A stretch of 64,000 nucleotides of DNA from Modestobacter sp. DSM 44400. Its GTDB lineage: Bacteria > Actinomycetota > Actinomycetes > Mycobacteriales > Geodermatophilaceae. The position numbers were made by a program, and so were the translations under genes. The notes beneath the pieces are model-generated. The model did not search any database. It worked only from the letters and a program-made list of their open reading frames with translations, and was not told the origin of the DNA. Shown one piece after another: positions 40,989 to 43,458 of this stretch (positions are counted from its first letter, which is position 1; the number at the start of each line of letters is the position of its first letter). The stretch spans positions 1 to 64,000 of the forward strand of contig NZ_FNOZ01000024.1 in the NCBI RefSeq assembly GCF_900107175.1. Reading direction: 5' to 3'.

Positions 40989-41687
40989 TCAGCCCAGCAG
41001 GCGCCCGGCCGGGTCGATCTGCCACGTCGGAACGGCGGCGACCAGCCGTGCCACCATCGCCGCCAGCAGCGCGGCGCCCTCCTCCGCCGAGGCCCCGGCC
41101 GGGTCGCCGAGCACCCCGTTCGGAGTCACGCCGCGCACCCCCTCGGCCCGCAGTCTGGGCAGCAACGCGCCGATCGGCGTGGTCTCGCCCGCCGCCGCCA
41201 GCGCCTCGCGCACCCCGTCCGGTTCCACGTGCAACATCAGTGACGTCTCGGTGCGGCCGGCGTGGGCGTCACCACTGGGCGTCCCGCACGGGAACCAGGC
41301 GACGTCCCGCCCCTCGGTGCGTAGCAGTGGCACCGCCGTCCGCAGCGCGTCGAGGTTGCCGCCGTGGCCGTTGACCACCACCAACCGGCCCGCCCACCGG
41401 CAGGCGGAGCGGCCGTACTCGACCAGCAGCCCGGTGAGCGCCCCGGTGCCGATCGACACCGTGCCCGGGAAGTCCTCGTGCTCGCCGCTCGCGCCGTAGG
41501 CCAGCGTCGGGGCGAGCAGCGCCCCGTCCAGCGCTGGGACGGCGGACTCCGCCACGACCGTCGCCAGCACCGCGTCGGTGGCCAGCGGCAGGTGGGGGCC
41601 GTGCTGCTCCACCGCTCCCAGCGGGACGACGAGCAGCGGCCGCCCGGTCAGCTCCGGCCAGGTCGCGTCGGCCAGCCGGTCGCTCAC
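40989..41687 (-). CDS. mftE: Mycofactocin peptidase MftE (creatininase family)
   Basis: 232 aa. The metal-binding motif GAVEQHGPHLPLATDAV at residues 23-39 and the glycine-rich VVNGHGGNLDALR near 105 mark the creatininase family. The later GDAHAGRTETSLML segment is typical of the MftE branch. MftE cleaves the modified C-terminal Val-Tyr unit from MftA. The GTG overlaps the TGA of the oxidoreductase scar upstream. Family knowledge plus the nearby mftABC genes support the name. Confidence 0.9.
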   Translation of the reverse strand: MSDRLADATWPELTGRPLLVVPLGAVEQHGPHLPLATDAVLATVVAESAVPALDGALLAPTLAYGASGEHEDFPGTVSIGTGALTGLLVEYGRSACRWAGRLVVVNGHGGNLDALRTAVPLLRTEGRDVAWFPCGTPSGDAHAGRTETSLMLHVEPDGVREALAAAGETTPIGALLPRLRAEGVRGVTPNGVLGDPAGASAEEGAALLAAMVARLVAAVPTWQIDPAGRLLG

Positions 41688-41848
41688 AGCGCCGTCTCCA
41701 GGCGCTCGCCCTCGACGGTGGCCGCCGACGCCCGGCGCGACGTCACGGAGTCGCCGATCCGGTGCACCTGCGCGGCGAAGACGATGCGGTTGGCGACGGT
41801 CACCGGGCCCAGGCGCAGCGGGGTGGACAGGTGGCGGTGCTGGTCCAT
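41684..41848 (-). pseudogene. Internally deleted OYE/FadH-family oxidoreductase (54-codon scar)
   Basis: An ATG with GGAGAGG upstream opens 54 codons. The first part (PLRLGPVTVANRIVFAAQ) is the start of an Old Yellow Enzyme/2,4-dienoyl-CoA reductase. The second part (HRIGDSVTSRRASAATVEGE) is the extreme C-terminus of the same family. More than 550 residues between them are gone, yet the join is in frame and the stop overlaps the mftE start. Mycofactocin clusters often include such an OYE gene beside mftE. Confidence 0.75.
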
Positions 41849-41879
41849 CCGCGCCTCTCCGTCCCTCCGCCGGTCCCGG

Positions 41880-42550
41880 CACCCTGCCCGCGGCTGTCGT
41901 TGACCTCCTTGAAGTCATCGAGGTCGACGAACAACAGGCTGACCGGGGCACCCGTGCGGAGACCGCGGGCAGTGGTCTCCTCCAGCAGGGTCCGGTTGGG
42001 CAGGCCGGTCAGCGCGTCGCTGAGCCCCTGGACCTCGTTGAGCCGCCAGGAGGCCAGGTGCGTCGGGCCCGCGGCCAGCACGAACGCCGCGTGCACCCCG
42101 GTCCACAGCCAGGGGTCGTGCATACCGGTGTGCCCGAAGACCGCCTGCGGGTACAGCGCGCCGATGACGCCATGGTGCACGGTGACCACCAGCAGTGCGA
42201 TGCCGAAGGGCGCCCAGTGCTGGTAGAGCGAGACGATCCCGACCATCACGAAGAAGATGAAGTGCGCTTCGGTGATGCCGTCCACGGGTGCACGAGCGCT
42301 ACCGAAGCGGCCATCAGGCTCAGCGTGGTCGCTCCGGAGCGCCCCGGGCGGGAGAAGGTGGGGACGGCGGCGAACTGTCCGCCGCCCCACCACCAGCACA
42401 GCAGCACGAGGGCGGCGGGCGCGGCCAGGCAGGTCCGCACGATGCCGTGGTCTGCGCTGCCAGACCGCCTCGGGCAGCTTGCGCCCGTCGGGCCGCAGGC
42501 GCACGGCCTGGTCGCAGAGGAAGCGGATCACCCTGTCCAGATCGGCGTGC
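41880..42550 (-). pseudogene. Membrane diguanylate cyclase remnant
   Basis: Broken frames on the minus strand give hydrophobic segments (LAAPAALVLLCWWWGGG, then HFIFFVMVGIVSLYQHWAPF and GVHAAFVLAAGPTHLAS). A GGDEF domain start follows (LSDALTGLPNRTLLEE, LLFVDLDDFKEVND). The sequence is lost before the GGDEF motif. At least two frame changes are needed. It is therefore an inactive, truncated cyclase. Confidence 0.75.
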
Positions 42551-42691
42551 GTGGAGGCCCACCTCCTGCACCCGGGCCCCGGTGGCGTTCCCCTTCGGAG
42601 AGGCTCGGACTGGGAGAGCGCACAGCCGACTCCTGGCCCGGTGGCAGGCGGCCGGGCGACGCTGGGGTCTCGCCCACCCCGGAGGTCCCCC

Positions 42692-42802
42692 GTGCTGACC
42701 GTCGCCGTCCTCGTCGTCTTCCTCGCCGTCCTCACCTCGGCCGACCTGCTGCCCGCACTGCTCGGCTCGGACGCCACCGGGCTGGTGGCACCGCTCCGTT
42801 GA
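42692..42802 (+). CDS. Putative 36-residue membrane peptide
   Basis: A GTG preceded by GGAGG at 6 bases opens a 36-codon frame with one hydrophobic helix (LTVAVLVVFLAVLTSADLL) and a short tail. It lies 45 bases upstream of vapB on the same strand. The ribosome site and the helix support translation, but the length is short and no family is known. Confidence 0.4.
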   Translation: MLTVAVLVVFLAVLTSADLLPALLGSDATGLVAPLR

Positions 42803-42847
42803 CCGTCGCCCGTCCCACTAGGACATCCGCGGTGGTACGCTGGCTCG

Positions 42848-43093
42848 ATGAGTGGGACGTACCCGGTGGTGCTCGGAGACCGCGGCCGGCTGGTCATACC
42901 CGCCGAGCTGCGGGAGCACATGCACCTGGTCGCGGGCGCGCCACTCGCACTCGTCGAGACCCCGCGCGGCTTCCTGGTGATGACGCGCGAGGAGCTCAAG
43001 CGTCTTGTCCGCGAGGATCTCGCCGGAGCAGAACTGGTCGATGAACTTCTCAGCGAACGCCGCGCAGCGGCCGCCGTCGAAGACGCCGGATGA
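42848..43093 (+). CDS. vapB: AbrB/VapB-type antitoxin
   Basis: 81 aa. The swapped-hairpin DNA-binding domain is DRGRLVIPAELREHMHLVAGAPLAL at residues 11-35, interrupted by no gap. The C-terminal part (LKRLVREDLAGAELVDELL) should bind the toxin. It overlaps vapC by ATGA. GTCC-CACTA-GGAC just upstream could be its operator. The ribosome site is weak, so translation may be leaderless. Confidence 0.85.
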   Translation: MSGTYPVVLGDRGRLVIPAELREHMHLVAGAPLALVETPRGFLVMTREELKRLVREDLAGAELVDELLSERRAAAAVEDAG

Positions 43094-43458
43094 ACCTGTT
43101 CGACAGTTCCGCGCTGCTCTGCTTCCTCCAGGGCGGGTTCGGGGCCGACCGGGTCGAGGAGGTACTGGTCGGTGAACCGGCGGTCTGCAGCGCCGCGAAC
43201 TGGTCGGAGACGGCTCAGAAGGTCCTGCGCCTCGACGGCGACTGGCCCAGCTCTCGTGCGCTGCTACTGAGCTATCAGCTGACCGTGGAGCCGGTGACCC
43301 GCGAGGACGCGGAAGCCGCAGCCGCCCTGTGGCGCCGGAACTCCGGGCTGTCGCTCGCCGACCGGATCTGCCTGGCCACCGGACGGCGCCTCGCGGCCGT
43401 CGTGTGGACCGCCGATCGGGCCTGGGGCGAATCCGACCTGGTGCGCCAGATCCGCTGA
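43090..43458 (+). CDS. vapC: PIN-domain toxin VapC
   Basis: 122 aa PIN ribonuclease. Acidic residues fall where expected: Asp5 in NLFDSSALL, Glu40 in ANWSETAQK, Asp91 in GLSLADRICLA and Asp109 in VVWTADRAW. It would cut RNA when freed from VapB. It sits in the gap between mftC and mftE on the opposite strand, which suggests insertion into that locus. Confidence 0.88.
   Translation: MNLFDSSALLCFLQGGFGADRVEEVLVGEPAVCSAANWSETAQKVLRLDGDWPSSRALLLSYQLTVEPVTREDAEAAAALWRRNSGLSLADRICLATGRRLAAVVWTADRAWGESDLVRQIR

Follow-up and report, generated by a model that had tools for sequence, protein, structure and literature searches.

A 54-residue remnant of an OYE/FadH gene as a candidate translated leader of mftE in Modestobacter

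The window analysed here is a stretch of 64,000 nucleotides from the soil bacterium Modestobacter sp. DSM 44400 (contig NZ_FNOZ01000024.1, positions 1 to 64,000), and directly before mftE it carries what is left of the mycofactocin OYE/FadH gene, a stub of 54 residues (41,684–41,848, minus strand) identified by its match to TIGR03997 and by longer copies in relatives. Judging from sequence comparison, it is likely that this decayed gene has been retained as a translated leader, or upstream ORF, for mftE, and the stub peptide itself is probably without function. On the minus strand the window holds mftA, mftB, mftC, a decayed GGDEF-EAL gene, the 54-residue ORF, mftE and mftF, with mftR on the plus strand. 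Scores for mftB, mftC, mftF and mftR are over the cut-off, mftA is a short readable ORF ending in IDGMCGVY, and mftE, the peptidase of mycofactocin biosynthesis (40,989–41,687, minus strand; 232 aa), matches TIGR03964 with 328.7 bits against a cut-off of 172. The remaining gene, mftD, lies on a separate contig of the same genome (G000:C115:67684-68838, L009; 688 bits).

The stub protein reads MDQHRHLSTPLRLGPVTVANRIVFAAQ joined in frame to VHRIGDSVTSRRASAATVEGERLETAL and then a stop, with the junction at 41,767/41,768. Its 81-nt 5′ part (41,768–41,848, minus strand) corresponds to the first 27 codons of the OYE gene, with 24 of 27 residues identical in the relative G015 and 21 of 27 in G011; the 84-nt 3′ part (41,684–41,767, minus strand) corresponds to the last 27 codons plus the stop, with 20 and 18 of 27 residues identical to the two OYE 3′ ends of G015 (G015a and G015b, respectively). 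The best NCBIfam match of the stub is TIGR03997 (mycofactocin system FadH/OYE oxidoreductase 2; E 2.5e-8), aligned in two stretches, the better of which places stub residues 26-52 on positions 617-643 of the 645-position profile. The score is 32.8 bits against a cut-off of 793.15, the profile ends alone being matched. Because both ends are homologous to TIGR03997 and the ORF lies beside mftE, we assign the stub to this family by descent: it shares with the OYE 2 enzymes both ends and the position next to mftE, but the enzyme body is gone, and by its sequence it is a remnant and not a member in the sense of a working enzyme. The profile positions imply that about 590 codons were lost from a gene of roughly 650. 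The initial annotation had proposed the two ends of an OYE/FadH gene (27 + 27 codons) fused in frame, a loss of more than 550 codons and a GTGA overlap with mftE; the first two are borne out by the TIGR03997 match, its profile positions and the relatives, and the overlap can be read in the sequence.

Both halves of the stub lead to this one family, and OYE adjoins mftE in relatives. That the halves resemble unrelated proteins by chance is ruled out by the TIGR03997 match, the relatives and a survey of 397 genomes sampled from the order. The sampling was even, and G015 and G011 are absent among the matches and were evidently undrawn. Within it, a single match spanning the first half of the stub to its last residue was found in G000 (the genome of the window) and G003 only, and several long-frame matches pass residue 27 and end at 35-43, none reaching residue 54. 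No TIGR03997 match over the cut-off was found in G000, a draft of 182 contigs. The best candidate there for a whole OYE 2 gene, a 389-aa open frame at C26:97-1125, scores 169 bits, under the cut-off, and is probably a different OYE.

Longer copies of the gene are found in the close relatives. In G015:C222 and G011:C103, OYE frames stay open for ~390 codons, up to the contig end, and their 5′ end with its leader matches positions 41,769–41,888 of the window at 89% identity. Two OYE 3′ ends, each with the GTGA overlap onto mftE, were found in G015, a 72%-complete bin: G015:C91 has about 245 codons (profile 398-644) with no stop, and G015:C372 has 39 codons to the contig end, 12 of them beyond the window's junction. 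As the 5′ and 3′ pieces lie on separate contigs, we infer from them a whole OYE gene before mftE in the subclade. Inspection by eye gave no long direct repeats where the two ends of OYE are joined: at most about 1-3 bases seem to be shared, going by the 5′ side in G015, G011 and G003 and the 3′ side in G015. In a second genus, g4, mftE is immediately preceded by OYE at all 8 loci, and at 6 of these OYE is nearly full length. We considered g4 as the source of the arrangement and rejected it: in the OYE tree g4 takes no firm position with respect to the copies of Modestobacter, and its OYE genes have a different upstream sequence. Imperfect palindromes that may resemble iron-regulator boxes lie upstream of OYE at the g4 loci L134, L148, L154 and L172.

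The signals in front of the lost gene are still in place in the window. A -10-like box, CAGGGT (41,881–41,886, minus strand; motif only), is also found in the OYE leaders of G015 and G011 and would serve as the OYE promoter; it is followed by a 32-nt leader (41,849–41,880, minus strand) with a Shine-Dalgarno-like GACGGAGA 7 nt before the ATG, and box, leader and start together are identical to G011 at 43 of 48 bases. A second deletion, of ~1.19 kb, took away distal GGDEF-EAL sequence as far as the OYE -10 box, but left both box and leader intact. Its junction was located by blastn to G015:C222 and G011:C103 at 41,885–41,888 (minus strand), where GGCA occurs on both sides, and the exact end base is blurred by these four shared bases. 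What is left of the GGDEF-EAL gene (41,885–42,805, minus strand) is truncated and frame-broken, with frame switches and DNA identities of 76.5% to G015 and 79.7% to G011, in both of which (G015:C222, G011:C103) long open GGDEF-EAL frames stand before OYE. In G019 there is no GGDEF body between toxin-antitoxin-like genes and the box; both the GGDEF and the OYE bodies are gone and GTCTGGCAGAGTGCCG is retained. Between mftC and the GGDEF remnant of the window, positions 42,848–43,458 on the plus strand hold an AbrB-like gene (TIGR01439 E 3.2e-5, under the cut-off) and, after it, a gene that is PIN/VapC-like by eye, with no NCBIfam match. A stretch similar to this AbrB-like/PIN-like pair adjoins the GGDEF remnant in G019:C74.

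A survey of mftE loci in the family points to what the OYE promoter may do for mftE. We searched for a -10-like hexamer ([TC]ANNNT) 5-8 nt before an mftE start codon. At the other mftE loci of the Geodermatophilaceae it is present in 65 of 77 and absent in 12, with TAGGCT, CAGGGT, TAGGGT and TACGCT the commonest forms; in shuffled mftE upstream sequence it occurs in 3.2%, a low estimate in that shuffling also scrambles start codons upstream of the aligned start. The positions of this motif suggest that mftE is usually leaderless and transcribed on its own across the family. All 13 Modestobacter loci without OYE have CAGGGT before mftE. Where OYE abuts or abutted mftE, the hexamer is found before mftE at 0 of 14 loci (0 of 6 in the subclade, 0 of 8 in g4). 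The G015 and G011 OYE genes carry instead an identical GTCTGGCAGGGTGCCGG box about 30 nt upstream of their own start; G003 and G022 are without the CAGGGT box. Because the subclade has no -10 box of its own at mftE and a CAGGGT box before OYE instead, mftE probably depends there on the promoter and leader of OYE. On the same survey, insertion of OYE before mftE in the subclade seems likelier than its loss in the other 13 Modestobacter.

The interior of the OYE gene appears to have been lost more than once. In G003 a stub of 46 residues, MSGQLLSTPLRLGPVALANRVVFAAHLTNAAVD joined in frame to AATVEGERVAAAL and then a stop, has the identical GTGA overlap with mftE and consists of 33 N-terminal and 13 C-terminal residues, against 27 and 27 in the window. 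Neither stub derives from the other, since that of G003 has extra N-terminal residues and that of the window extra C-terminal ones. In G022, GTG AGC is followed immediately by GCT GTG ACC of mftE, and the end of the leader, GAGGGGC, is common to G003. In G019 the frame opened by ATGGAC, behind the shared box, continues into mftE in its reading frame, and an ATG closer by opens an ORF of 18 residues that terminates on the mftE start. In these two genomes OYE appears to have been lost by other routes, so that the old OYE start region now runs into mftE; for G019, we infer the former presence of OYE at the locus from the resemblance of its leader. An mftE DNA tree of 32 rows groups the six subclade rows at 99/94. 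G000 and G015a form a pair (98/93), with G019 next (97/89); G003 and G022 pair at 100/98 and are then joined by G015b at 92/84, below the strict mark. The deletion of G000 is private, as its sister G015a retains codons that are missing from G000. Given the junctions and the positions in the tree, with G019 outside the G000/G015a pair and G003 and G022 in the other half, at least three independent losses of the OYE interior are indicated, or four if those of G003 and G022 are separate, provided that the tree is right. G003 (L064) and G022 (L063) each have a second, diverged copy of mftE, and these were left out of the counts. That of G003 (G003:C361:215474-216082) is an mftE-like gene with an internal TAG; the same bin of G022 also holds, by DNA similarity, a second mft stretch running from mftC to mftR (G022:C247, L111), near which lies a 57% identical mftE.

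The translation signals of the window allow for a coupling of the stub to mftE. The stub has an ATG, a Shine-Dalgarno-like site and the -10-like box 32 nt upstream (motif only), and its stop codon TGA (41,684–41,686) overlaps the mftE start GTG (41,685–41,687) in GTGA (41,684–41,687, minus strand), an overlap also present in both G015 copies and the G003 stub. The stop thus lies at -4 nt to the mftE start, inside the coupling range of about -4 to +3 nt given in PMC12548453. The ribosome site that the initial annotation had assigned to the stub does exist, but its strength is moderate, with an anti-SD energy of -6.6 against a window background with a median of -3.0, a 10th percentile of -6.2 and a 5th percentile of -7.8; the sites of the longer OYE copies are stronger (-9.5 and -10.0). 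A further Shine-Dalgarno-like site, CCTGGAGA, sits inside the stub 7 nt before the GTG of mftE (anti-SD energy -6.4) and might be enough for an unaided start.

In the explanation that we favor, the ancestral state would be an OYE gene behind a CAGGGT box with its stop overlapping the mftE start. Ribosomes would load at the OYE leader, translate the stub, terminate at GTGA and re-initiate at mftE, and an in-frame junction, whether of 54 or 46 residues, would bring a ribosome from the OYE start to a stop exactly on mftE. Selection for mycofactocin synthesis would then purge those deletions that break the relay. The proposal that the deletion had been selected to preserve mftE translation gains support from the in-frame stub of G003, from the start codons leading into mftE at G019 and G022, from the finding that mftE has no -10 box of its own at any locus where OYE is or was its direct neighbor, and from the second deletion, which spares the OYE box.

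Much of this would also be expected if a dispensable OYE gene had decayed neutrally by random deletions, with only the promoter and mftE being needed, the stub serving no purpose, its frame a matter of luck and mftE using its own Shine-Dalgarno-like site. Any deletion sparing the promoter and mftE would look alike, and the frame alone is specific to a relay. Other points that weigh against the relay are the ribosome site of the stub, weaker than those of the longer OYE copies, the missing CAGGGT box in G003 and G022, the 12 of 77 other mftE loci that have no -10 box either, and the N-terminal half, whose changes do not distinguish the stub from longer copies. One junction in three is expected in frame, and two in-frame junctions arise by chance in 1 of 9 cases; mftE does have its own site 7 nt before the GTG, the adjoining GGDEF-EAL gene is plainly decaying, and in the GDC.APRR stretch common to both G015 copies the C, A and P are altered in the stub. 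Set against this, both stubs (G000 and G003) are in frame and end in the GTGA overlap, while a junction shifted by one base would in one phase stop after 34 residues and in the other run open into mftE for the rest of the 848 nt that were analysed; in addition, each of the four losses has left a start codon that leads to mftE. We regard neutral decay as the lesser explanation, unlikely though deserving of weight.

Far less probable is a functional 54-residue microprotein, a role that the initial annotation had suggested the stub might have gained and that finds no support here. The ORF is intact, with its start codon and Shine-Dalgarno-like site, but the substitutions do not speak for a constrained peptide. 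In the N-terminal half the stub shows 3 residue and 3 silent changes against G015 and 6 and 3 against G011, which is uninformative, as it differs about as much as G015 and G011 do mutually (3 and 2). The C-terminal half has 7 residue and 2 silent changes against G015a and 9 and 1 against G015b, where the two G015 copies differ from each other by 3 and 5 (small numbers throughout). This half looks relaxed over its few codons, most of it is missing from the G003 stub, and G019 and G022 are without a comparable peptide. Taken with a dN/dS of 0.17 for mftE against G015a (215 codons), the pattern, in small numbers, is consistent with constraint that acts on expression rather than on the peptide itself. 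Least probable of all is a collapse of the OYE interior in the draft assembly of 182 contigs, for the junction is interior to a 67-kb contig, the C-terminal part of the stub has diverged, no OYE 2 over the family cut-off is found elsewhere in G000 and another species (G003) has a similar stub.

A retained stub acting as translated leader for mftE would have parallels in known systems. Both the delivery of ribosomes by short ORFs and re-initiation at NTGA overlaps are already known from PMC12548453 and PMC6728339. In the former, short ORFs directly before genes and overlapping them by NTGA (-4 nt) are proposed to have as their sole function the driving of translation of the next gene; the stub is alike in its shortness and its overlap, but differs in its origin, being what an internal deletion left of an enzyme gene that relatives have in longer copies or in other end states. 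PMC6728339 treats termination-reinitiation where a stop codon overlaps a start codon and the upstream ORF contains an SD-like site, features that the stub and mftE share; those systems are gene pairs, whereas the stub is an upstream partner minus about nine tenths of its codons, with a coupling that is putative here. Translated bacterial pseudogenes are mostly truncated genes in the available part of PMC10986495, which proposes no service to a downstream gene; the stub resembles them as a broken gene possibly translated from its ancestral start. Among the matches listed in the open-licence PMC literature, we found neither this stub nor a gene-loss route to an upstream ORF.

Many genes are preceded by short ORFs, but it can seldom be seen how these arose; here longer copies, two stub sizes and near-complete losses occur in one genus, a range of states that lets the idea that coupling constrains gene loss be tested directly. 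For annotation, a tiny ORF in front of a biosynthetic gene may act as a signal for expression and encode no peptide of use. The survey of promoters suggests that mftE expression was rewired in the subclade: a leaderless-type promoter gave way to dependence on a redox gene. We judge the odds to be even that selection can turn a complete protein gene, time and again, into a minimal ribosome relay, so that upstream ORFs are born by gene loss. If true, the subclade would show together the long gene, in-frame relays of two sizes and end states with a start fusion, and a gene standing between a neighbor and that neighbor's promoter and start signals could be emptied but never removed.
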